Source of the DNA: a virus
DNA length: 32,711 bases
Strand: one strand, 5' to 3'
Virus record (IMG/VR): IMGVR_UViG_3300046463_000589
Coordinates: 1 to 32,711 of that record
The stretch's first letter is position 1. The number at the start of each line of letters is the position of its first letter. Made by a program: the position numbers and the translations under genes. Shown piece by piece: positions 17,318-32,711 of the stretch. The notes beneath the pieces are model-generated. The model made no database searches. It was not told where the DNA came from and saw only the letters and a program-made list of their open reading frames with translations.

Positions 17318-17728
17318 CTACGTGGTCGCCATGACGACGGCGCCGGTGCAGGTAAACTTGACCTGCGTGTCGGAGCGGTCGCCGACCTTGCCGCTGAGCG
17401 GCATGTAGTCCATCAGGAGCGCGGTGGCGGTGAACGACGGGTTCGTCGTCGAGACGGTCGTGTTGACCGGGACGATCTTGACGGTGAAGCCGGTGCTCGA
17501 CAGCAGCGGCCACAAGGTGGCGTTCACCTTCGCCGAGGCGAAGTCCTGCAGGAACGTCACGGTGATCGTGTCCGAGCGGAGCCCGACAGCGTGCTGCGTT
17601 GCGGTTGCGCCCATGGCGGTGATGTCGACGTCGTTCTGGGAGATAGCCACCTCGACTGAGTCGACGTGGTCGGTCAGGTCAACGGCGTTCACCGTCACCT
17701 GCGCGTTGGTCAAAATAACGACTCCCAC
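17318..17728 (-). CDS. Major tail tube protein
   Basis: A 136-aa beta-rich protein: TVNAVDLTDHVDSVEV (residues 12-27), DSDTITVTFLQDF around 52-63, KVNATLWPLL, TNPSFTATALLMDYMPLSGK and VGDRSD. These suit the lambda gpV/tail-tube fold, and position between the terminator and chaperone genes agrees. A second copy of this domain forms the C-terminus of the 386-aa protein at 19177-20337, sharing FLQDF, KVNA, SGFTV, TNPxF, YxPLSGKVGDR. The GTG start at 17728 has a GAGGAAGGGG site, suited to high expression, and a hairpin lies just upstream. Confidence 0.8.
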   Translation of the reverse strand: MGVVILTNAQVTVNAVDLTDHVDSVEVAISQNDVDITAMGATATQHAVGLRSDTITVTFLQDFASAKVNATLWPLLSSTGFTVKIVPVNTTVSTTNPSFTATALLMDYMPLSGKVGDRSDTQVKFTCTGAVVMATT

Positions 17729-19176: not shown

Positions 19177-20337
19177 TCACGAGGTGGCCTCGACGATCTC
19201 GGTTACGGCCTGGAAGACGACAGGAGCGTCGTCGCGGTCGCCGACCTTGCCGGATAGCGGCGTGTAGTTGGTGAGAATGCAGGTGGCGGAGAATGTCGGG
19301 TTGGTCGGCCCGGTCAACGAGTTCTGCCGTGGCTTGGCGGTCACGGTGAACCCCGAGCTCGACAGCAGACCGGACAGGACAGCGTTCACCTTTGTGACCC
19401 CGAAGTCCTGTAGGAAGGTGGCCTGGATGACATCGGTGCGCATGCCGAGCGTCCAGACGGTCGCGGTATCGCCGTAGCTCGTGACGTCGATCGGGGCGGA
19501 GTGCGTGCCGAGTTCGAGCGCGTCGAGGTGGTCGGAGAGATCGATGCCGTTGACGATCAGCCCGCCGTCAAGGAGGACATGGAGCGGTGGTAGTACCGGG
19601 TGTCCGCCAGTTCTCGCGCCTGTCGCGTAGAGCCTAGCGCGACCTGCACCGGTCTTGCCGAGATGGAGTTCGTCCTTTCCTGTCGCGTAGAGCCGCGCGA
19701 CCCCGGCACCGGTCTTCTGGTAGGTGATGCCGGCAGCGGGGATGTACTGTTTGACACCAGACCCGTAGAGTCGAGCGACCCCGGATCCGGTCTTCTGGTA
19801 AGTGGTGCCACCAGCGTGGATGTACTGCTTGGCGCCTGTCGCGTAAAGTCTCGCGACCTTGGCACCGTCCCACGGTATCGCGTCCCAGGCGTCTCCCCAC
19901 GGGTCGGCTCCCGTCCCGCGTTCGACGTAGGTAGCTGCGTTGCTGCCACCACCATGGATGCGAGCCGCACCGGCACCCGTCTTCTGGTAGATAGCGTGTC
20001 CGCCGACCTTGCTGCCCGACCCGTAGATGCGCTGAACGACCTTGCTGCCACCCCACGGCATCGTGTCCCAGGCGTCGCCCCACCCGAATGTCTTGAGGTT
20101 GCTGCCGGTCTCTACATAGATGCATGCCTTGCGGCCCGCCGCGTATGCCCTTGTTGTGCCCGTACCGGTCTTCTGGTAGACGATGCCACCGGCCTCCTGT
20201 TCCGGGAACGGCACGAGCGGCGAAACGCGTGGGCCTGCGGTGGTGCCACCGGTTCTGCTGCCTGTTGCGGAGAGTTGCGCGACCCCGGCGACCGCCTCGC
20301 CGTAGGTGACCTGCTTAGTGCCGTATCCCTTGGGCAT
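19177..20337 (-). CDS. Repeat protein fused to a tail-tube paralogue, 386 aa
   Basis: The protein has two parts. Residues about 10-245 hold degenerate 20-residue repeats of type KTGAGVARLYATG followed by a short strand (for example 52-71, 119-131, 182-196, 208-222, 228-242), interrupted by two WGDAWDxxPW blocks (86-95 and 147-156). Residues 255-386 are a second tail-tube domain: NGIDLSDHLDALELG, ATFLQDFGVTKVNAVL, LLSSSGFTV, TNPTFSATCILTNYTPLSGK, VGDRDD, closely parallel to the 136-aa tube protein. A tube subunit with a repeat domain would decorate the tail. Clear repeats, clear homology; function inferred. Confidence 0.75.
   Translation of the reverse strand: MPKGYGTKQVTYGEAVAGVAQLSATGSRTGGTTAGPRVSPLVPFPEQEAGGIVYQKTGTGTTRAYAAGRKACIYVETGSNLKTFGWGDAWDTMPWGGSKVVQRIYGSGSKVGGHAIYQKTGAGAARIHGGGSNAATYVERGTGADPWGDAWDAIPWDGAKVARLYATGAKQYIHAGGTTYQKTGSGVARLYGSGVKQYIPAAGITYQKTGAGVARLYATGKDELHLGKTGAGRARLYATGARTGGHPVLPPLHVLLDGGLIVNGIDLSDHLDALELGTHSAPIDVTSYGDTATVWTLGMRTDVIQATFLQDFGVTKVNAVLSGLLSSSGFTVTAKPRQNSLTGPTNPTFSATCILTNYTPLSGKVGDRDDAPVVFQAVTEIVEATS
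19603..20181. repeat. Degenerate 20-aa repeat block (tail-tube fusion)
   Basis: DNA coding for 6-8 degenerate copies of the (K/E)TGxGxARLYxxG unit. The copies share the phrase YQKTGxGxARLY and are more divergent than those at 24015-25229. Some carry the insertions KQYIHAGGTTYQ or KQYIPAAGITYQ, and two carry WGDAWD blocks. The same insertions (AKQYIPSGGxVYT) also occur in the other repeat protein, showing common origin. Confidence 0.75.
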
Positions 20338-21048
20338 CTACGTCAGCCACGCAAACCCGGTCTTCGTGTAGATGGTTCCGCTAGCCGCAGCCTTGTAAGT
20401 TTGGAGAACGGCCGCGTAGGAGTTGGCGTTAGGCGACCACGACCCTGTCGCGGTCTGGGTGCCTGTGCTGGAAAGGATCAGGTATTCGACGGCCAGGCAC
20501 GGCGATGTCCCGGTCGTGATCGCTCCAGCCTGACTGTAGCTACCGCCAGGCGTGAACGACGTCTCCGCGCTAGCGCCAATGGCAACAGCGGCGATGGCAA
20601 CCTCGGCCGCGAGCGTTGTTGCGCCGGTAGCGCCCACCGACATCGACGAGACGCTAGGCGCGCTCGACGCGGTCGCGTTCTGATCCCCAGCCGGGGAACT
20701 CGTGTCGGCGCCGGAGAACTCTAGGATCTTGATCGACATAGCGTTCACGTCGGCGACATTTATGGTGACTACGGTCGGCGCGTTCGCCATGTAGGCGGCG
20801 GCGAATCCGCACCCGGTGATCGACCCCGTAACCGCCGCTTTCTGAGTGTTCGTCGTCCACGTGTTCGGCGTAGATCCATTGTCGGTGACTCCTGAGCCGG
20901 AGATCGGGTTGGCGTTCGTCAATGCGCGACAGCCGACGACAACGACGAGCAAACTGCCTACCGATACGCCGCTGATGGTTTTGGCGTAACTGGTGCTGCC
21001 GGTGTTGTTGACGCTCGAGTGCCGCTCGGCGACGAACGCGAGAGCCAT
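20338..21048 (-). CDS. Beta-sandwich virion protein, 236 aa
   Basis: Starts at ATG 21048 (TAATG with the upstream stop) and ends one base before the tail-tube fusion. The sequence is low in charge and rich in Ser, Thr, Ala and Gly strands: FVAERHSSVNNTGSTSYAKT, SVGSLLVVVVGCR, INVADVNAMSIKILEFSGAD, CLAVEYLILSSTGTQTATGS. This resembles jelly-roll domains found in phage tail fibres and bacterial surface proteins. Its last residues GTIYTKTGFAWLT resemble the opening strand of the 20-aa repeats in its neighbours. A role in virion surface binding is inferred. Confidence 0.65.
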   Translation of the reverse strand: MALAFVAERHSSVNNTGSTSYAKTISGVSVGSLLVVVVGCRALTNANPISGSGVTDNGSTPNTWTTNTQKAAVTGSITGCGFAAAYMANAPTVVTINVADVNAMSIKILEFSGADTSSPAGDQNATASSAPSVSSMSVGATGATTLAAEVAIAAVAIGASAETSFTPGGSYSQAGAITTGTSPCLAVEYLILSSTGTQTATGSWSPNANSYAAVLQTYKAAASGTIYTKTGFAWLT

Positions 21049-22265
21049 TACGCGATCGCCACCCAACCCGAGGAGCCTGACCCGGATGACTTGTAGTAGA
21101 TGCACGTGCCGGCGCCGGCGCTCGTGAGGTTTAGGTAGTAGGACCCGACCGGGGCGGACTGGACTCCGCCCGGCGCGCCGTTGCCGGTGTAGATGCCAGG
21201 ACCAGCGCCGAGATCGATCAGCGGCGGCTCGAAGAGCCGATAGACGTTACTGGTCACGGACAGGTTGCTGCACCCGTTCACGCTCGAAGCGAACCCGTTG
21301 GCGGATACTCCGACCGCCGAGTTGAAGCCCGAGTTCGTGTTGATCAGAAGCCCCTTGACGTTCGCGCCTCCGGCAGCGTTCATAGTTAGCCCGCTGACGA
21401 AGTTGTACTGCCCCGAGTTCGTGGTGCCAAGACCGTCCGTGTCGATCGTGAACGCCTGCACCGCCGTCTGGTTTTGGACCTCCCAGCCGATACTCGTAAA
21501 CTGGTTCCAAGCCCCCAGGCAGACGATCGCGCCGCCGTCCATCTTGACGCCATACACACGCCAATGCGCAGCGGCTCCTGGCAGGTAGATGCTGGTGGGG
21601 CAGCCAACGAACGAGCCGCCCTTCACCTCCGCCCCAAGGCACTTCACGGGTTTGATCGCGTTCGTCAGGTTGTAGAAGGTGCAGTTGTCGATCGTGTGCC
21701 ACGACGCGTCCTGACCCGCGGTGAACGTCGACGTCCACCCCGTCGTACCGTCCGTGTTCGCGTTCGCCGCGAACACGCAGTCGCGGAATGTGACACGGCT
21801 CGTGTTGTTGATGCTGACCAGGGTCGAGCCGAGGAGTTTGTCGTAGAGCAATAGGTTCTCGAACATCGGCCCCTGCGGGTTGTGGGTGGCGCCCGCGTCG
21901 ATGCTGAACAAGGTCATAGCGTTCGTGCCGGTCAGAATCGCTGACCCGTGTCGCGGGTCGTTATAGATCGGACGGCCGACGCCAAGGAACTTCACGCGTT
22001 TGGTGCCCAGGTTCAGGGTGGAGTTGATGACATACCGGCCGCCGGGGACGAGAATTACCGGCTCGCTGTTCGTCGCTCCGGTGCCGAGGTCGATGGCGGC
22101 CTGGAACGCAGCCGTGTCGTCCGTCGCGTTGTCTCCGAGCGCCCCCATCGCTTTCACGTTGATGAAGTGCTGGTCGATGTAGTCGAGGTTGGAATCTACG
22201 AGCGTTCCCCAGCCGATTTCGCCGGCGGCGGGCTTGTAGAGCTTCCCCGGCGTATAGGTGCCCAC
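21048..22265 (-). CDS. Pectate-lyase-like tailspike 1
   Basis: A 405-aa right-handed beta-helix protein. An N-terminal anchor (KLYKPAAGEIGWGTLVDSNL, residues 8-27) is shared with the neighbouring tailspike, followed by INVKAMGALGDNATDDTAAF (35-54), the FGAxGDGxTDDTxAI entry of Pectate-lyase-3-type tailspikes, and then strand-turn repeats with Asn ladders. A C-terminal GSYYLNLTSAGAGTCIYYKS domain probably trimerises. Such proteins bind or cut capsular or cell-wall polysaccharides. Catalytic residues cannot be picked out. GTG start at 22265. Confidence 0.8.
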   Translation of the reverse strand: MGTYTPGKLYKPAAGEIGWGTLVDSNLDYIDQHFINVKAMGALGDNATDDTAAFQAAIDLGTGATNSEPVILVPGGRYVINSTLNLGTKRVKFLGVGRPIYNDPRHGSAILTGTNAMTLFSIDAGATHNPQGPMFENLLLYDKLLGSTLVSINNTSRVTFRDCVFAANANTDGTTGWTSTFTAGQDASWHTIDNCTFYNLTNAIKPVKCLGAEVKGGSFVGCPTSIYLPGAAAHWRVYGVKMDGGAIVCLGAWNQFTSIGWEVQNQTAVQAFTIDTDGLGTTNSGQYNFVSGLTMNAAGGANVKGLLINTNSGFNSAVGVSANGFASSVNGCSNLSVTSNVYRLFEPPLIDLGAGPGIYTGNGAPGGVQSAPVGSYYLNLTSAGAGTCIYYKSSGSGSSGWVAIA

Positions 22266-22279
22266 CTAGCCTGCCCCCA

Positions 22280-23761
22280 TCACGTCTGCCGGCACAGCCC
22301 GAGGGTTTGCAGAACGGTGATAATGTCGTCAACCGTGTGTGCGGCCCCGGTCGCGAGCAGCGGCTGCACGACTGGAGTTGCGTTCCAGAACCCGATCTTC
22401 TGTCCTGCCGCCCCACCCGACGTACCGATCTTCGTACCGGTGCCGGTTGAGAACTGGAAGTTCAAGCCGCCGCCAACGATGAGGTCGCCGGAGTACCGGG
22501 TATTCGTGAGGAACTGACACTCGTTCGAGGTGTTCCACGTCAGGAAGTTGATGTCGGTCGAGTTGTCCGCCTTGCGGCCGACGAAACTGGTGTTGTTCGG
22601 AATCCTGATCGGGCCACTAGTGTAGGTTGCGCCGTTTAGGTCGATGCCGTAGGCCGTGTAGGCGCCGCTAGCCACAATCCCTGACGTACCGCCGGTAAGG
22701 GACAGCCCGGCGGCCGACAATGTCCCGGCCGTCACACCTGCCAGAGTGGCGAGTCCGGTCGTGTCGATCCACGAGCACACAGAGCCCGTACCGACCGTCG
22801 GTGCCGGGGTCGAGTTACCGCGCGACAGCAGGAACAGGTTGTTGGTAGCAGGCTGCGTGTAGCCGTCGCCGGTACCTCGAGAACGGATCGCCGCCCCGTT
22901 CGTGTCCACATGCAGGAAGAGGTTATGGCGGCAATGACCAGACCCACCCGTGCCGGAGCCCAACATATCTAGGGCGATCGCAGTGCCACTCTTGTTGATC
23001 GACAGTCCGAGGAACCTATTGCTGTCGGTGTCGCCCATCTCAACCCCGGTGCCGTTCTGAACGTACACCTGACAGTTCACGAACACGTTGACGGACACAT
23101 TGCCGCCCCCGGTCGCCCACGATCCCATCGTGATCCCCTTAGCGGTCGAGGTCGTCGCGCACGCCACGGTGACCTTCTCGAAGATGCAGCCTTGGAGATC
23201 CTCTGTCCCCGCGAGGTTTACGGTGTTCAACGCGAGACCGACACTGGTGCCGTCATGGATGTGGATGTCGCGGAACTCACCGCCGTAGATCGACTTCAGG
23301 CTAATGACGGTGGCGGCGAGGTTGTTGCCGTGGAACGTGATCCCCTGAATGCCGCAACCTTTCAGCGACTCGGCGGCCGTGCTCGCCTCCCACTTCAACA
23401 TCGTGCCGGTGCCCGACAACCGCTTGAACACGGTGCCATGCGTAAGCGCGCTCGTGTACGGAGACCCGACAGACCCCTGCCCCTGCAAGCGGATGAACTG
23501 CTTGTCAGTCAGATCGAGGGTGCCATTGACGACGTACTGGGCGTCAGGGAACCTGATGAACAGCCCGTCCGCTGTCGCGGCGTTGATCGCTGCCTGGATG
23601 GTGGCGGTGTCGTCGGTGGTGCCTCCTGCCGCACGAACGACAGCGACGCCGGGGGTGACGAATGAGTCGAGCGTGTCGAAGTTTCCGTCTACCAGCGTCC
23701 CCCAGCCGGTCTCGCCGACCGCAGGCTTATATAAGCCGAGATTCGTTGTGGTGCTACCCAT
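22280..23761 (-). CDS. Pectate-lyase-like tailspike 2
   Basis: A 493-aa beta-helix protein with the same N-terminal anchor (LGLYKPAVGETGWGTLVDGN, residues 8-27) as tailspike 1, then VAVVRAAGGTTDDTATIQAA (38-57), a beta-helix (CGIQGITFHGNN, GGEFRDIHIHDG, LQGCIFEKVTVAC), and a C-terminal region with GTKIGTSGGAAGQKIGFWNA followed by TPVVQP and a helix (TVDDIITVLQTLGL) typical of fibre trimerisation ends. Two different spikes sharing an anchor suggests either alternative or stacked receptor-binding proteins. ATG 23761 overlaps the upstream gene by 8 nt. Confidence 0.8.
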   Translation of the reverse strand: MGSTTTNLGLYKPAVGETGWGTLVDGNFDTLDSFVTPGVAVVRAAGGTTDDTATIQAAINAATADGLFIRFPDAQYVVNGTLDLTDKQFIRLQGQGSVGSPYTSALTHGTVFKRLSGTGTMLKWEASTAAESLKGCGIQGITFHGNNLAATVISLKSIYGGEFRDIHIHDGTSVGLALNTVNLAGTEDLQGCIFEKVTVACATTSTAKGITMGSWATGGGNVSVNVFVNCQVYVQNGTGVEMGDTDSNRFLGLSINKSGTAIALDMLGSGTGGSGHCRHNLFLHVDTNGAAIRSRGTGDGYTQPATNNLFLLSRGNSTPAPTVGTGSVCSWIDTTGLATLAGVTAGTLSAAGLSLTGGTSGIVASGAYTAYGIDLNGATYTSGPIRIPNNTSFVGRKADNSTDINFLTWNTSNECQFLTNTRYSGDLIVGGGLNFQFSTGTGTKIGTSGGAAGQKIGFWNATPVVQPLLATGAAHTVDDIITVLQTLGLCRQT

Positions 23762-25310
23762 TTGTCCTCCCGCTGCCGACTAGGACTCTTGTGCTGCTCG
23801 AGGTTGGTTTGCCGTTGGTGGTTCCGTCTTCGCTGATCGCGCCCGGGGCACTCCACGGAGCGATGTTCCAGGAATCGCTGTCCCACTTGCTTGCGACGTC
23901 CGCGTATTCCGACGGTTCGGCGATCGTGCTGTTTCCGTTCACCGTGAACTCGTTGATACCCGACCCGGTGGCGACCTTTGTGCGGCCGTAGACTGGTTCG
24001 CCGGCGCCGGACTGTAGGTGCAGGCTCTCGCCGGATCCGTACAGCCGCGCGATGCCCGCGCCGCGCTCGACATACAGGTTCGCGTCGGGCCCGTATGCGT
24101 ACAGGCGGGCGATCGCCGCGCCGGTCTCGGCGAACGTGGTGGCCTTGCTGCCGGTGGCGTATAGCTTGCCGGTGGCGGTGCCCGTCCTGGCCCTGGTGTT
24201 GAGCTTCGCCCCCGAGCCGTACAGCTTGGCGGTGCTCGCGCCGGTGCGAGCCCTGATGTTGAGTTTGGCACCTGTCCCGTACAGTTGGGCGACGGCCGGT
24301 GCTTTGCGGTTGAACAGAGATGCGTCAGCACCAGTCGAGTAGAGTCTCGCGACCGCGGCGCCGGTCTTGGTGTAGACCTGGCCGCCTGACGGGATGTACT
24401 GCTTCGCACCCGACGCGTACAGCTTGGCGACCCCGGCACCCGTCTTGTTCAGGTGGAGTTCGTCGCCACCCGAACCGTAGAGCTTCGCTACGACGGCGCC
24501 ACGCTCGACGTAGGAGACGACCTTGCCGCCTGCGCCGTAGAGCCTGTTGACACCCGCGCCGGTCTCGACGTAGGTGACAACTTTGCCACCCGAGCCGTAG
24601 AGTTTTGCTACTCCGGCGCCGCGCTCCTGATAGGTGACAACCTTGCCGCCGACCGCGTAGAACTTGGCTACCCCGGCGCCAGTCTTGTTGACAAGCGCCG
24701 CGTCCGCGCCAGTCGCATACAGCTTCGCAACCGCGGACCCGGCCTTCGTGTAGACGGTGCCACCGCTCGGGATGTACTGCTTGGCGCCCGCGCCGTAGAG
24801 TTTCGCGACGCCCGCCCCGGACTTGTTAACGAGCTCTCCATCGGCACCCGTCGCGTAGAGTTTCGCGACGCCTGCCCCAGTCTTGTTCGCGAGCGCCGCA
24901 TCCGTGCCCGTGCCGTAAAGCTTCGCCGCCCCGGCTCCCGCCTTGATGTAGGTGGATGCGCCCGTCTTGTAGAGACCGGCGCCGGTCTCTACGTAGGTGA
25001 CCGCCTTGCTGCCGGCCGCGTAAAGCTTCACCACTCCGACGCCGAGCCGGTTGAACAGCGACGCGTCGGCCCCCGTACCGAACAGCCGGGCGACACCCGC
25101 ACCCGTCCGGTTGAACAGCGAGGCGTCCGTGCCGGAGCCGTAAAGCTTGGTGGCACCCGTGCCGCTCCTGTTGAGCAGGAGTTGGTCGGCGCCCGTCGCG
25201 TACAACCGTGTTGCGCCCACACCGGTCTTCTGGTAGACGACGCCGCCAACAGGCGGAGCGTCGCCGGGCGGCTCGACCGGCCGGACGATGATCGGGCGCG
25301 CGAACCGCAC
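23754..25310 (-). CDS. 20-residue tandem-repeat virion protein, 518 aa
   Basis: Residues about 28-432 comprise some twenty copies of a 20-residue unit, consensus (K/R/E)TGAGVAKLYxTGAD-strand-(N/V), for example RSGTGATKLYGSGTDASLFN (48-67) and KTGAGVAKLYATGADGELVN. One copy (about 108-118) is degenerate, and two carry the insertion AKQYIPSGGxVYT. The C-terminal 85 residues are a separate beta domain with KWDSDSWNIAPW (475-486). No catalytic motif is seen. The regular short-strand/turn pattern suggests an elongated beta-solenoid-like or fibrous stalk. GTG start at 25310 shares a base with the preceding stop (TAGTG). Role as adhesin or virion decoration is inferred from neighbours. Confidence 0.75.
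   Translation of the reverse strand: MRFARPIIVRPVEPPGDAPPVGGVVYQKTGVGATRLYATGADQLLLNRSGTGATKLYGSGTDASLFNRTGAGVARLFGTGADASLFNRLGVGVVKLYAAGSKAVTYVETGAGLYKTGASTYIKAGAGAAKLYGTGTDAALANKTGAGVAKLYATGADGELVNKSGAGVAKLYGAGAKQYIPSGGTVYTKAGSAVAKLYATGADAALVNKTGAGVAKFYAVGGKVVTYQERGAGVAKLYGSGGKVVTYVETGAGVNRLYGAGGKVVSYVERGAVVAKLYGSGGDELHLNKTGAGVAKLYASGAKQYIPSGGQVYTKTGAAVARLYSTGADASLFNRKAPAVAQLYGTGAKLNIRARTGASTAKLYGSGAKLNTRARTGTATGKLYATGSKATTFAETGAAIARLYAYGPDANLYVERGAGIARLYGSGESLHLQSGAGEPVYGRTKVATGSGINEFTVNGNSTIAEPSEYADVASKWDSDSWNIAPWSAPGAISEDGTTNGKPTSSSTRVLVGSGRTNG
24015..25229. repeat. 60-bp tandem repeats (about 20 copies)
   Basis: The coding DNA for the 20-residue units is a 60-bp tandem repeat array; on the minus strand most copies hold a GCCAAGCTNTAC core coding AKLY, and copies diverge by several bases. 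Unit length is conserved apart from two longer copies carrying the AKQYIPSGG insertion and one shortened copy. Between copies the strand-coding half varies in types (for example DASLFN, DAALVN, KVVTYV, KLNIRA), some of which recur non-adjacently, as expected from copy shuffling. Confidence 0.8.
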
Positions 25311-25450: not shown

Positions 25451-26209
25451 TCAGTTCAGGGATTGAATGAGCCAGTAGTGGAGCGTGGACGTGTTCGACG
25501 CGCTCGACGAGCCCCACGTGATCCCCATCTGCAACCCGCACCCAGCCGTCCCCTGGCCTGTCGTGTCGATCGTGGCCGCGAGGCCGCCCATCGGGACAGC
25601 GGGGAGGATCGTGCCGGACGGAACACCCCAGACCGCGAACCCGAAGCCCTTACCCGTACCGGCGTCCTTGTTCGGAGGCGACGTCCAGACCACCATGTCG
25701 AACTGCGCGTAGAACGGCAACCCGGTCGAGCCGGTAATCGTCGTCCACGCAATCGACGGGCCGAGCGACACGTTCGTCCCGATCGTGACGTTGCTACCCC
25801 AACGTGGAGTGAGCACCACAGTCGGCGTGGCCGTGTTGCCGTACAGCCCGCCGAACGTCAGCCGATACGCCTTGCCCGCCCTCGCGTCGTTCGCGGGGAT
25901 CGCACAGAACTGGTTGATCAGATCCTGCGTAACCGCACCAGCGTTCGTCGGGCCCATCATGCAGATCTCCGACGCCGACGTGTTCCTGGCGTTGAACGCG
26001 CCCGTCGGCGGATCATTGATGTCCGCCGCGACCAGCCCCTGCCGCGGCATCCCGTAAATGTGCGGATGCTTACGGGCGAGCTCCAGGTTGCGGCGCACCT
26101 TCTCCGGTGCACGTTCGAGCAGCCACTGCTGGTGGAACGGCCCGAACGGTTGCCCGGCGACCCGCTCGAGGTCGATCAGGTCTGAAACAGTGAGCGTGGG
26201 TGTTTCCAT
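25451..26209 (-). CDS. Virion-associated beta-rich protein, 252 aa
   Basis: ATG 26209 has a strong AGGAGG ribosome site. The first 70 residues are helical and charged (TVSDLIDLERVAGQPFGPFH, LLERAPEKVRRNLELARKHP). The rest is beta-rich and Gly/Thr-rich (TVVLTPRWGSNVTIGTNVSL, FYAQFDMVVWT, GFGFAVWGVP, LHYWLIQSLN), reminiscent of small capsid-decorating or fibre-head domains. The helical start may dock to the virion and the beta part may bind ligands. No named family is recognised. Confidence 0.65.
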   Translation of the reverse strand: METPTLTVSDLIDLERVAGQPFGPFHQQWLLERAPEKVRRNLELARKHPHIYGMPRQGLVAADINDPPTGAFNARNTSASEICMMGPTNAGAVTQDLINQFCAIPANDARAGKAYRLTFGGLYGNTATPTVVLTPRWGSNVTIGTNVSLGPSIAWTTITGSTGLPFYAQFDMVVWTSPPNKDAGTGKGFGFAVWGVPSGTILPAVPMGGLAATIDTTGQGTAGCGLQMGITWGSSSASNTSTLHYWLIQSLN

Positions 26210-29369: not shown

Positions 29370-29606
29370 TTAGGCGATGGGGATCATTGTTGGTCGCCGA
29401 TCGCCGGCGGCCTTACACTTCGAGCAGTACCAGCGGTCAGCACTGAGCCAGAGCACGGAGCGCATCTGGCCGCACTCGCAACAGACGGTGATCATGACCG
29501 CGTTGTCGTCACTGTTGCCGAACTCGAGCGTCGGGTGACCGTTGACCTCGGGGAGCGTGCCGACCTCGTAACGTCCGGGCCGTTTGCGCTTGAGGTATGA
29601 GGTCAT
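29370..29606 (-). CDS. Zinc-ribbon protein, 78 aa
   Basis: ATG 29606 overlaps the glycosyltransferase stop (ATGA); the longer frame to 29759 is a shadow. The protein starts MTSYLKRKRPGRYEVGTLPE, then TLEFGNSDDNAVMITVCCEC and, after WLSADRW, YCSKCK. The two CxxC knuckles (CEC at about 43-45 with the preceding Cys42, and CSKC at about 61-64) imply a zinc ribbon. It ends RRPTMIPIA. It may be an adaptor for the sugar-transfer module, which is inference from position. Confidence 0.65.
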   Translation of the reverse strand: MTSYLKRKRPGRYEVGTLPEVNGHPTLEFGNSDDNAVMITVCCECGQMRSVLWLSADRWYCSKCKAAGDRRPTMIPIA

Positions 29607-30334
29607 GCGGAAACCGGCTCGCTCGGCTTCAATCCGATGTAGATCTCGTTCTCGCCGTCCTGCCCGCCGTGGTCGATCTTCACCATCAGCGTGCCATCGC
29701 GCCACTCCGGCCACAGGTATGCCTGCCCGATGTGGCCGAGCAGCGCGTCCGAGTCGCACCAGATGTTGTAGCCTTTGGCGCGGATCTTGCGGCAGAACTC
29801 ATAGTCCTCGTTCAGGTAGACGCCGTCTGTGCTCTCGAAATAGGGGAACCCGATGTCGTCGAGGACACGCCTGCGGACGAGCATGCCGGCGCTGCCGGAC
29901 GCCATCACCATGAACGGTACGTCGGGCACCTCGTGGAGTTGGTACGGCAGCCAGCCGGGGTAGTCGCGTCCGAGGCGCTCGTCGTGGAACACCGACTCCT
30001 CTTTCGCGATCGTCAGCGTATACGGCGGGTTGCGTTTCACCCCAAGCGGGACGACCACGTCGACGTCATCCTCGAGTAGACGGACGAGCAGGTCGCCGGG
30101 GAAGCGGTGATCGTCGCCGAGTATCCACGCCCACTCGTGATCGTCCGGCATGTCCATGATCGCCATGTTCAGGTTGTCGGTGATCGACGCCGAGCGGCGC
30201 ATCAGGACGCCGGAGCCGGGCGGCGTCGCGAGGTTAAACAGGTCGATGACGAAGTCTGGGTAGCGGAGCTGGTCGCCGATCGGGATGATGACGCTCCCTG
30301 GCGGCTGCTTCCTCGCCCGGTCTTTAGGTGTCAT
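29603..30334 (-). CDS. GT-A-type glycosyltransferase 1, 243 aa
   Basis: ATG 30334 overlaps a 13-codon mini-ORF's stop (ATGA). The protein has the GT-A order: SVIIPIGD (residues 15-22), a helix and WAWILGDDHRFPGDLLVRLL (about 70-89) with the DDH metal/nucleotide-sugar motif, DVDVVVPLGVKRNP, a later SGSAGMLVRRRVLDDIG with an acceptor-side LNEDYEFCRKIRAKGYNIWC (EDYEFC is a typical catalytic/acidic region) and a final LLGHIG. It would transfer a sugar to a phage or host acceptor. Substrate cannot be read from sequence. Confidence 0.75.
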   Translation of the reverse strand: MTPKDRARKQPPGSVIIPIGDQLRYPDFVIDLFNLATPPGSGVLMRRSASITDNLNMAIMDMPDDHEWAWILGDDHRFPGDLLVRLLEDDVDVVVPLGVKRNPPYTLTIAKEESVFHDERLGRDYPGWLPYQLHEVPDVPFMVMASGSAGMLVRRRVLDDIGFPYFESTDGVYLNEDYEFCRKIRAKGYNIWCDSDALLGHIGQAYLWPEWRDGTLMVKIDHGGQDGENEIYIGLKPSEPVSA

Positions 30335-30372
30335 TGGCCGTGGGCGGCGGTACGTGCAAGGAGGGAGTTCAT
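30331..30372 (-). CDS. 13-codon bridging mini-ORF
   Basis: ATG 30372 overlaps the stop of glycosyltransferase 2 (ATGA) and its TGA overlaps the start of glycosyltransferase 1 (ATGA). The peptide is MNSLLARTAAHGQ. The same length and double overlap occur at 2186-2227. Likely a relay that couples translation across a gap, with no peptide function implied. Confidence 0.3.
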   Translation of the reverse strand: MNSLLARTAAHGQ

Positions 30373-31217
30373 ACCGCCGCCTCGTCGGCCTCGAGGACGT
30401 CGGATTCGTCCTCGAACTCGGGCGGGTCGTGGTTCGCGAGCCACTCGGCCCGTGTCTCCTCTCGCATCGCGTAGTAGCCCTTCTGCGTCTCACGGCGGGT
30501 CTTCGGCCTGTCCTCCGGCCGGTGGTAGGAGACAAGGTCACGGCCTAGATCGCAGGTGGGCACGTCCTTGTCCCAGTTCGGGCCGCGCACCCACTCGCGC
30601 TTCCCGGCAGCGCCCATGACGCTGTACAACCAGTGTTGCGGGCCAACTCGAAGCGTCGGGTTCCACCGGAAGATGTTGCGATCCTTGTACGTCCACTCGC
30701 TGTCACAGTCACGGTCGCGCACGTATTCGGACAGGCCGAACGGCGACGGTACCTCGAGCCCCATCCACTCCATGACGGCGGTGTCGGCGAGCATGTCGCG
30801 GCCGTCAAGGACGGTGTAGGTGGCGACGTTGAGGTCGGTGGCGGCGAGGCGGGCGCGGGCGATCTCGGGGTCGACCTGGAGGATGCACTGGTCGGCGTCG
30901 AAGATGAGCACCCAGTCCTCGTCGGTCAGTTCAAGCGCGCCGGCGAGCCGGAGCAGTTGATTCCGCTTGGCGAGTTCGTTGCCCCACCAGATCGACGTTG
31001 GCCGGTAGATGAGCGACGCGGCCCCGCCCGCTTCGGCGGCGTGCATGATCGCCTCGGCCTCCCGGGGGTGGCTGCGGGCGCGGGCGCCCGGGGTGAGCGA
31101 GTAGGCGCCGTCGCAGGCGACGATCGTGTCGCAGATGCGGGCGAACCCGCTCACGGCGGCGGAGAGCCAGGACGGGCTCTCCATCCACCAGTTCAACAGT
31201 CCGACGACCTTCAACAC
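30369..31217 (-). CDS. GT-A-type glycosyltransferase 2, 282 aa
   Basis: GTG 31217 has the site AAAGGAGC. It starts LKVVGLLNWWMESPSWLSAA and has an early GT-A helix-strand (RICDTIVACDGAYSL), then RNQLLRLA and EDWVLIFDADQCILQVDPEI with the DxD motif (Asp107 and Asp109), then MEWMGLEVP and KDRNIFRWNPTLRVGPQHW, with later RPKTRRETQKGYYAMREETR. It is probably a nucleotide-sugar-dependent transferase. It differs from glycosyltransferase 1, so the two likely act in sequence. Acceptor unknown; phage structural protein or host polymer are both possible. Confidence 0.7.
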   Translation of the reverse strand: MLKVVGLLNWWMESPSWLSAAVSGFARICDTIVACDGAYSLTPGARARSHPREAEAIMHAAEAGGAASLIYRPTSIWWGNELAKRNQLLRLAGALELTDEDWVLIFDADQCILQVDPEIARARLAATDLNVATYTVLDGRDMLADTAVMEWMGLEVPSPFGLSEYVRDRDCDSEWTYKDRNIFRWNPTLRVGPQHWLYSVMGAAGKREWVRGPNWDKDVPTCDLGRDLVSYHRPEDRPKTRRETQKGYYAMREETRAEWLANHDPPEFEDESDVLEADEAAV

Positions 31218-31230
31218 GTGCTCCTTTCAA

Positions 31231-31323
31231 TCACCGGCGAATCAGGTTGTAGACGGCCAAGGCAGCGAACGCCGCGAGGAAAATGATGATGAACTCGCGC
31301 CAACTCACCCACAAGGCGATCAC
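31231..31323 (-). CDS. Tiny single-span membrane protein, 30 aa
   Basis: GTG 31323 overlaps the epimerase stop (GTGA). The product starts with a short amphipathic part (VIALWVSWRE), then one hydrophobic span (FIIIFLAAFAALAVY) and a basic end (NLIRR). Its stop lies 13 nt before the next gene's start, and no other frame fits the interval. It matches the other tiny one-pass peptides in size and in ending on Arg-Arg. It could anchor sugar-transfer enzymes at the membrane, which is speculation. Confidence 0.55.
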   Translation of the reverse strand: MIALWVSWREFIIIFLAAFAALAVYNLIRR

Positions 31324-32204
31324 ACGGCCACGAGATCGTGCTCGACGGCGTGACGGTAGTAGTCGACAGTGCGGCGCAACCCGATTTCGAGCGGCATGAA
31401 CGAGACCGGGCCGAGCGGACGGAGCGTGGCCGGGTTTCCGAGCACGGTGGAGTTTGTCGGCTCGCCCGGACGCATCGGCACATGGAGTAGATCACCCCAG
31501 CCGACCGCCTCCTTGACCATCTCGGCGATCTCGTTGACGGTCGTGGCTCGTCCCGTGCCGGCCTCGAACACGCGGTCGTAGACGCCGTGGTCCTGTAAAA
31601 GCGCACGGCAGAGAATGTCCGCGACGTCCTCGACGTAGACCATGTCCATGACCTGTTCGCCGTCTCCGTAGATCGCGAGTTGCTCGCGGCGCAGGCAAGG
31701 GAGGATGAAGTTGGGGACGATCTTCCTGACCGGCCCGGGCTTCTGCCCCGGACCGTACGCGTTGAGCGCACGAACGACGGCGATGCCGGTGCCGTGCTCG
31801 GCGTTGAACATCAGGGCGAACCGCTCGGCGGTCGTCTTGGTGATCGAGTAGCTGTTGTTCATCCAGTGGTTGCCTACCGCGATGTAGACAGCGGGCACCT
31901 CGTAGCGACGTACCGCCTGGAACACGTTGAGGCCGCCGTGGATGTTCGTCATCACGGCGGGCAGCGGATCCTCGATCGTCTCCTGCGTGCCAAGCACGCC
32001 GGCGAGATGGATCACGCCCTCGCTCGCGGCGACCGCCTCCGAGACGGAGGTGTAGCTGGTGACGTCGCCGAGGAACGTCTCCGCGTCGATGCCATCAGCC
32101 CAGCCGCGGTGGTCGAAGATCAGCGGATCATGGCCGAGCTCCTGAAGCCTGGCTACGACGTAGCGGCCGATGAAACCCGAACCGCCGGTGACAAGGACTT
32201 TCAT
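31320..32204 (-). CDS. NAD-dependent sugar epimerase/dehydratase
   Basis: A 294-aa extended short-chain dehydrogenase. It has the NAD-binding GGSGFIG (residues 7-13) after MKVLVT, an adenine-binding acidic part (DHRG, FLGDVTS), GVIHLAGVLG, the active-site NNSYSITKTTAERFA with the YxxxK pair, and RALNAYGPGQKPGP, a typical substrate-binding segment, then MDMVYVEDVADIL. It resembles UDP-glucose 4-epimerase and related dTDP-sugar enzymes and would supply a modified nucleotide sugar to the two glycosyltransferases. ATG 32204 overlaps the methyltransferase stop (ATGA). The exact sugar is unknown. Confidence 0.88.
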   Translation of the reverse strand: MKVLVTGGSGFIGRYVVARLQELGHDPLIFDHRGWADGIDAETFLGDVTSYTSVSEAVAASEGVIHLAGVLGTQETIEDPLPAVMTNIHGGLNVFQAVRRYEVPAVYIAVGNHWMNNSYSITKTTAERFALMFNAEHGTGIAVVRALNAYGPGQKPGPVRKIVPNFILPCLRREQLAIYGDGEQVMDMVYVEDVADILCRALLQDHGVYDRVFEAGTGRATTVNEIAEMVKEAVGWGDLLHVPMRPGEPTNSTVLGNPATLRPLGPVSFMPLEIGLRRTVDYYRHAVEHDLVAV

Positions 32205-32711
32205 GTGACCTCCGCGAGGAAGATGGTCTGGTCGGGAATGCCGGCCGGCGTAGCGCTGACGAGGTTGCGGCCGTAGAGGGCGCGATAGTCGTGCGGGATG
32301 TTCCAGTTGTTGCCGGGGTCGCCGTCTTGAGGATCCCAGTCGCAGTTGAGAATCCAGCGGTTCGATAGCCAGACCATTCGCCTGAGAAGGAGCGAGAAGC
32401 TGTGGTAGTTCTCGGGTTGATGCATTAGCACTTCGGCGCTGATCACCAGGTCTCTTTTGCGTAGTTCGGTCGGCCGATAGCGCTGGATCGACATCTTCCT
32501 GAACGTGCCGCGCGGCAGATGCCGTTTCGCCGACTCGAGCATCTCCTGGCATATATCGACGCCTGTGTAGCTGGCCTCCGGCCGGATCCGCTGAATCATC
32601 ATGCCGAGCCTGCCGAACCCACAACCCATGTCGAGCACGCTGTCCCATTCGAGCGGTTCGAGCACGGCGGCGATCGCGTCCTCCTGCACCCGGTAGACGT
32701 CCGGGTCGCAG
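32201..32711 (-). CDS. SAM-dependent methyltransferase (start off window)
   Basis: The open frame continues past the right edge without a stop, so the true start probably lies outside; an internal GTG at 32689 would give 162 aa. It has the class-I SAM-binding glycine motif VLDMGCGFGRLG, the acidic GVDICQEMLESAKRHLP, and DLVISAEVLMHQPE typical of motif IV regions. It likely methylates a sugar or a small molecule of the surface-modification pathway encoded next to it, since it is coupled to the epimerase by ATGA. Confidence 0.75.
   Translation of the reverse strand, partial: CDPDVYRVQEDAIAAVLEPLEWDSVLDMGCGFGRLGMMIQRIRPEASYTGVDICQEMLESAKRHLPRGTFRKMSIQRYRPTELRKRDLVISAEVLMHQPENYHSFSLLLRRMVWLSNRWILNCDWDPQDGDPGNNWNIPHDYRALYGRNLVSATPAGIPDQTIFLAEVT

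Follow-up and report, generated by a model that had tools for sequence, protein, structure and literature searches.

A 20-residue repeat in a viral contig as a candidate beta-solenoid stalk of a tail-borne adhesion apparatus

Results

A repeat protein in the fibre module of a viral contig

The window, meaning the whole stretch of DNA that was analysed, comprised the entire IMG/VR record IMGVR_UViG_3300046463_000589 (32,711 bases, G+C content 65%), which is possibly a fragment. P1, a repeat protein of 518 residues with a GTG start, was encoded at 23754–25310 by a reading frame that was open on the minus strand, and the plus strand of the same interval was interrupted by stops. This minus-strand gene comprised an array of 19 units (24015–25235, delimited by profile and segmentation), the last eight of which (W12–W19, 24015–24512) were also folded alone, and a C-terminal region (23757–24014) that could also be recognised in each of the four further P1 proteins obtained from viral contigs. 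Within the C-terminal region, the P1 of the window carried a 27-column insert. A Trp-rich insert in this region, WDSDSWNIAPW, was unique to the window among the five P1 proteins and resembled, by eye, WGDAWDxxPW segments between the units of P2, a second repeat protein (19177–20337, minus strand).

The end of the P1 gene was overlapped by the start of a minus-strand gene at 22280–23761, for which there was a weak match to a pectate-lyase-like protein (E 0.001, below the Pfam cut-off), and a pectate-lyase-like protein of the tailspike type was encoded at 21048–22265 (minus strand). The gene order in L087/L004 began with terminase- and portal-like genes (identified by eye) and a stretch where the capsid gene would be expected, continued with sugar genes (by eye) and the fibre module, which includes P1 and P2, and ended with connector, terminator, tail tube and tape measure genes.

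Periodicity and composition of the repeat unit

Self-identity of P1 reached 0.34 at a lag of 20 residues and 0.24 at a lag of 40, relative to a maximum of 0.149 among 500 shuffles of P1 (lags 5–69), which confirmed the 20-residue period over about 400 residues described in a sequence-only reading of this DNA. Self-identity at a lag of 10 (0.163) also exceeded the shuffle maximum, a 10-residue pseudo-period that would be expected from two like arcs per coil. A profile search marked 19 units in residues 26–432, in agreement with the earlier estimate of about twenty; as the profile derived from 19 units cut by hand, 17 in P1 and two in P2, this count is a segmentation, and the independent evidence for the period is the autocorrelation. 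Of the 19 units in P1, 16 were 20 residues long, while units 4, 7 and 13 spanned 35, 26 and 26 residues, respectively. The four strand types that had been listed (DASLFN, DAALVN, KVVTYV and KLNIRA) were all found in P1.

Conservation was counted in four P1 proteins with 71 units in total (19 + 19 + 18 + 15), all of which were included. Glycine occupied position 15 in 71 of 71 units and position 5 in 67 of 71, leucine occupied position 11 in 68 of 71, and TG was spaced approximately every ten residues along the array. The variable part of the unit was the strand that starts at position 17 and continues through position 3 of the following unit. Charges in these variable strands formed 40 opposite pairs vs 18 like pairs, from which no conclusion was drawn because the strand types are inherited as blocks. 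At the DNA level, the description of the array as a 60-bp tandem array held for parts of it (24465–24681 and 24784–24926) and not for the rest, because P1 units share on average 56% of their bases (maximum 75%).

Searches for known families

In Pfam, PHROGs and NCBIfam, no credible match was found for the repeats of any of the five P1 proteins, and together with the searches of isolated phages described below this agreed with the earlier reading, which did not recognise the unit from known phage adhesin families. The best PHROG value (E 0.00087) came from a 30-residue piece of the L012 protein and a family of unknown function that was matched by two of the five P1 members at E 1; P1 of the window had only weak matches at E 1, to families of unknown function. 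The best sequence-profile match in the PDB, DotG/IcmE (E 0.0046), was provisionally read as compositional. A tblastn search of P1 against 50,697 phage records gave no match, weak evidence given low-complexity masking, and the divergent L008 protein likewise had no match in phage records with low-complexity sequence masked.

A DNA pattern of the repeat marked nine stretches in viral contigs and none in a species-genome collection. One contig, L083, had a single pattern match within a long sheath-like ORF (by eye), which was taken as chance. P1 as a single query against viral contigs found nothing, a limit of the chosen patterns since relatives exist; the neighbouring interval 25451–26209 as a query against viral contigs also found nothing, and a search of genomes with the tail-protein alignment gave 55 stretches with a pattern match, none of which was confirmed. 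In the open-licence literature on repeats or solenoids in phage tails, decorated tail proteins, curli-like phage proteins and second major tail proteins, we found no description of this system, although it may have been published elsewhere.

The array differs among relatives and is constant between near-identical genomes

The four other P1 proteins had 19 units in L079 (= L006), 18 in L004 (= L005, L017, L087), 15 in L012 (= L010) and, in the divergent L008, 9 by profile or 14 by hand cutting. A repeat match was present in 9 of the 11 records searched. Of the other two, G003 begins too late to tell about the presence of the repeat, and G009/L089, which includes the region preceding the connector genes, had no repeat match; G009/L089 is distant, as its connector-to-tail genes had no blastn match to those of the window. 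Over the connector-to-tail-tube genes, the window and its close relatives shared 88–90% DNA identity, and L008 74%.

Unit DNA was compared without gaps in four arrays, using the 60 bases at the start of each unit. Within arrays, identity averaged 56–61% with maxima of 73–78%, and thus no recent duplication was visible. Between genomes, W12–W19 and units E12–E19 of L079 were 80–93% identical. When unit order was shuffled 1,000 times, no shuffle had as many consecutive reciprocal best units as were observed in 5 of 6 array pairs, and in the sixth pair 4 of 1,000 shuffles reached the observed number. The order of the last eight units was identical in the window, L079 and L012, and reciprocal best matches between the window and L004 were consecutive over W14–W18 only. 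The N-terminal half of the array was variable in unit number and order among relatives, with shifted correspondences such as W3–W6 with E7–E10 and W10–W11 with C9–C10.

Between near-identical genomes the arrays were constant. L004 and G001, from different samples, were 99.99% identical over 14,376 bases and encoded the same P1; L007 and L017 were 99.99% identical over 11,455 bases, P2 included; and P2 of L079, L013, L014 and L015 had a single length with 0–14 differences in 1,731 bases. Array length and surface change slowly, by modular evolution and not by fast switching, as relatives differ in how many units they carry and in what order, yet both are fixed between near-identical genomes. The sequence-only reading had proposed variable copy number and order, which the counts of 19, 19, 18 and 15 units among relatives bear out; it had attributed this to recombination among 60-bp copies, which was not visible, since units within an array were at most 73–78% identical, counterparts across genomes were up to 93% identical, the C-terminal unit order was kept and arrays did not change between near-identical genomes. 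Fixed copy number and order, which would have spoken against such variation, were found between near-identical genomes and not among relatives at approximately 90% core identity.

Structure prediction points to a beta-solenoid

AlphaFold was run on monomers of whole P1 and of eight P1 units. The whole-protein model (five sequences) was all-beta and weak (pLDDT 56, pTM 0.55). The eight-unit model was also all-beta (pLDDT 78.8, pTM 0.79), with strands of up to 17 residues and short turns between them; for its alignment the same five P1 proteins were cut into 50 overlapping pieces meant to be in register, many of which were slid by the aligner (giving 413 columns), and this may itself favour stacking. 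Both models had regular beta-strands at a 20-residue period. Foldseek against the PDB gave no match below E 0.001 among those listed (0 of 10 for whole P1, 0 of 219 for eight units), and none of the 105 listed matches in a viral library was significant; three uncharacterised phage proteins in that library had probabilities of 0.85–0.93 but E values of 0.1–0.2. In a DALI-like second look, restricted to Foldseek's own candidates, the curli subunit CsgA (PDB 8c50) ranked first for both the eight units (Z 16.2, 162 aligned, rmsd 8.2) and whole P1 (Z 22.8, 278 aligned, rmsd 8.4; 11 chains compared). The S-layer protein RsaA ranked next for whole P1 (Z 17.0, rmsd 18), and among the remaining 49 rows of the eight-unit comparison most were beta-helices (Z 11–13, rmsd 2.4–3.4).

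On the strength of these models, the fold is probably a beta-solenoid with approximately one unit per coil, with no particular relative or type of solenoid implied, because Foldseek gave no significant match and the rmsd to CsgA was above 8 Å. A beta-solenoid rises about 4.8 Å per coil, so 19 coils would make a rod of approximately 9 nm. The suggestion of a solenoid-like protein in the earlier reading was thus supported by structure prediction (two AlphaFold models and the second look), and its description of a long fibre was not.

We considered whether P1 might instead be a trimeric tail-fibre shaft or inert spacer, in which three chains intertwine, a common arrangement in tail fibres, and the repeat only sets the length. 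P1 sits among tailspike-type proteins, its full-length monomer model was weak, and strands of ~7 or 17 residues with short turns could also intertwine; however, the eight-unit piece already folded as a monomer (pTM 0.79) and both models aligned best to single-chain solenoids, and we regard this arrangement as unlikely.

The rank of CsgA as top structural match of both models also raises the possibility of a phage-encoded functional amyloid, in which open-ended P1 solenoids would stack head to tail into curli-like fibrils. Like CsgA, P1 is a predicted solenoid with approximately 20 residues per coil and a variable number of coils. PMC10192328 describes a curlin repeat of 23 ± 5 residues with variable coil number, a reported range of 4 to 62 repeats per curli subunit, within which the 19 repeats of P1 fall, and a curlin motif of N-x-hydrophobic-x-hydrophobic-x-Q with a QX10Q kernel. 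Unlike CsgA, P1 has TG arcs and neither a Q/N ladder nor the curlin motif (0 matches in P1 to QX10Q with six residues before it or to NX5Q), no curlin family was among the Pfam matches at E 1 when the five P1 proteins were scanned, and P1 is encoded in a phage structural gene cluster. Moreover, PMC10192328 reports that no polymerising proteins were found among other solenoids of similar fold, and the further C-terminal region of P1 could cap the rod. We consider an amyloid very improbable.

Finally, the surface of the rod might itself be the adhesin, with the K/R at position 10 and the Tyr at position 12 of the conserved strand, one pair in each coil, facing outward and binding anionic polymers of the host envelope over the full length of the rod. 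Position 10 was K or R in 66 of 71 units and position 12 was Y in 67, and P1 has a net charge of approximately +28 (pI 9.8). Strand alternation would place these side chains outward, but the ladder of K/R and Tyr may merely stabilise stacking, and a sticky multivalent surface appears distinctly unlikely as the main role of P1.

P2 joins the repeats to a second tail-tube domain

The same repeat occurred in P2, which was not covered by the sequence-only reading. This protein of 386 residues (19177–20337, minus strand) carries a repeat region (19615–20328, minus strand; 8 units marked by profile, with irregular spacers) followed by a second major-tail-protein domain (19180–19590, minus strand; phrog_4574). 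Residues 260–379 of P2 matched positions 16–137 of the 147 in phrog_4574 (E 1.1e-12), so that the tail-tube domain is present over nearly its whole length. The major tail protein proper, also of phrog_4574, was encoded at 17318–17728 (minus strand), and the tail domain of P2 was 47% identical to it over 133 aligned positions. No tail-tube domain was found in P1, which matched 0 PHROG families at E 0.01.

The plan of repeats plus tail domain was common to L079, L007 and L012. P2 of L079 was 190 residues longer than that of the window, the surplus lying between units. In L079 (L079:4030–5757) and near copies, these 190 extra residues appeared lectin-like by eye, and a Pfam match to them was absent.

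The closest named tail proteins were those of the Rhodococcus phages Shagrat, REQ1, Jflix2 and Madraxi, whose major tail protein was 40–45% identical; this similarity tentatively suggests actinobacterial hosts. Shagrat and REQ1, the two phages whose gene regions were compared, have a terminase-to-tape-measure order similar to that of this virus, with only one short gene (204 and 615 bases, respectively) between the capsid gene and the adaptor/terminator. Unlike this virus, 6 of 6 records had one tail-tube match each.

A fast-diverging head protein ends in half a repeat unit

Immediately before P2 lies the gene of a fast-diverging protein, here termed the head (20338–21105, minus strand), which ends in half a repeat unit, GTIYTKTGFAWLT (20341–20379, minus strand); the N-terminus of P2 is apparently the other half of this split unit. 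In the six pairs among the heads of the window, L079, L007 and L008, the last 16 residues were identical at 9–13 of 16 positions, and the bodies were 27–31% identical by global alignment, as against 88–90% DNA identity (74% for L008) over the connector-to-tail-tube genes. The L012 head, which matched the other heads at E 3e-7 to 0.007, was excluded from the half-unit count, as its cut was arbitrary (6–7 of 16). In L012/L010, head, repeats and tail domain form a single ORF with no split unit, part of which is also carried by L084 (1,100 of 1,100 bases identical); this fusion argues that head, repeats and tail domain act together. A Pfam search assigned no family to the head protein, and the suggestion that it is a binding head comes from its divergence and the position of its gene.

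At the head/P2 junction, TAG followed by ATG, in frame and inside a repeat unit, was found at 7 of 7 unfused loci examined (the window, L079, L013–L015, L007 and L017), which represent three distinct junction sequences only. In L008 the head and P2 genes overlap by 4 bases in a different frame. Amber read-through from head into P2 was considered and set aside, as TAG occurred at 21 of 21 zero-gap junctions, including that between the tape measure and the next gene, and the L008 overlap lies in another frame. The junction looks like ordinary coupled translation, read-through being the less likely reading.

The survey of junctions covered ten partly overlapping loci, with genes called by a simple script. 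Zero-gap junctions, with TAG directly before ATG or GTG, were frequent in the window (28672/28673, 28276/28277, 26845/26846 and 20337/20338) and its relatives. The commonest stop in the survey was TGA (83 of 158), yet the zero-gap junctions were all TAG.

Discussion

We propose, with slightly better than even confidence, that the repeat forms a two-sheet beta-solenoid stalk in a tail-borne adhesion apparatus that is anchored via P2 and holds a diverging head. Of this, the sequences show the repeat, the tail-tube domain, the half unit, the fusion and the divergence of the heads, and the fold comes from prediction; position in the tail, docking through the half coil and presentation of a binding head are inferred. 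One 20-residue unit would correspond to one coil, made of the conserved strand GVA[K/R]LY, a TG arc, the variable strand and a second TG arc, and coils would stack into a stiff rod, approximately 9 nm long in P1, that would serve as the stalk. The P2 rod would be anchored by its complete second tail-tube domain, which would replace some of the ordinary tail-tube subunits, and would hold the fast-diverging head, as a putative binding domain, away from the tail. The head would join P2 through its C-terminal half coil, a connection that in one relative takes the form of outright fusion. P1 would be a free-standing, longer rod with its own C-terminal region, in a role less clear than that of P2.

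Decorated tail tubes are known already. According to PMC8718954 and PMC6669499, a tail-tube domain with an extra domain decorating the tail is found in lambda gpV, T5 pb6, SPP1 gp17.1* and lactococcal 936 TpeX; the extra domain is C-terminal, in some cases added via a frameshift, and is carried by only part of the subunits in some phages, and for 936 phages, binding to host cells has been reported for a carbohydrate-binding module from the tail. P2 likewise combines a tail-tube domain with an extra part. Unlike in these extended major tail proteins, the extension of P2 is N-terminal, consists of a repeat array and sits on a separate duplicate gene, the window and several relatives make the head as a protein of its own, and P1 has no tail domain.

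A more specific and tentative version, which we consider unlikely on balance, is that of a plug-in adhesin: the open-ended solenoid on the duplicate tail-tube subunit would act as a standard socket, to which fast-evolving heads would donate their C-terminal half coil. The fused version in one relative suggests that head and socket belong together. If the proposed stalk is correct, a duplicate tail-tube gene bearing a solenoid stalk and a separate head would let the phage swap host-binding heads, and this exchange would leave the essential tail gene untouched. The repeat also offers a very regular candidate solenoid scaffold, of which natural variants of 15 to 19 coils can be compared directly.

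Upstream of the fibre module, the window carries, at 29603–32648, an epimerase gene identified by family searches and genes that resemble glycosyltransferase genes by eye, the products of which might modify glycans.
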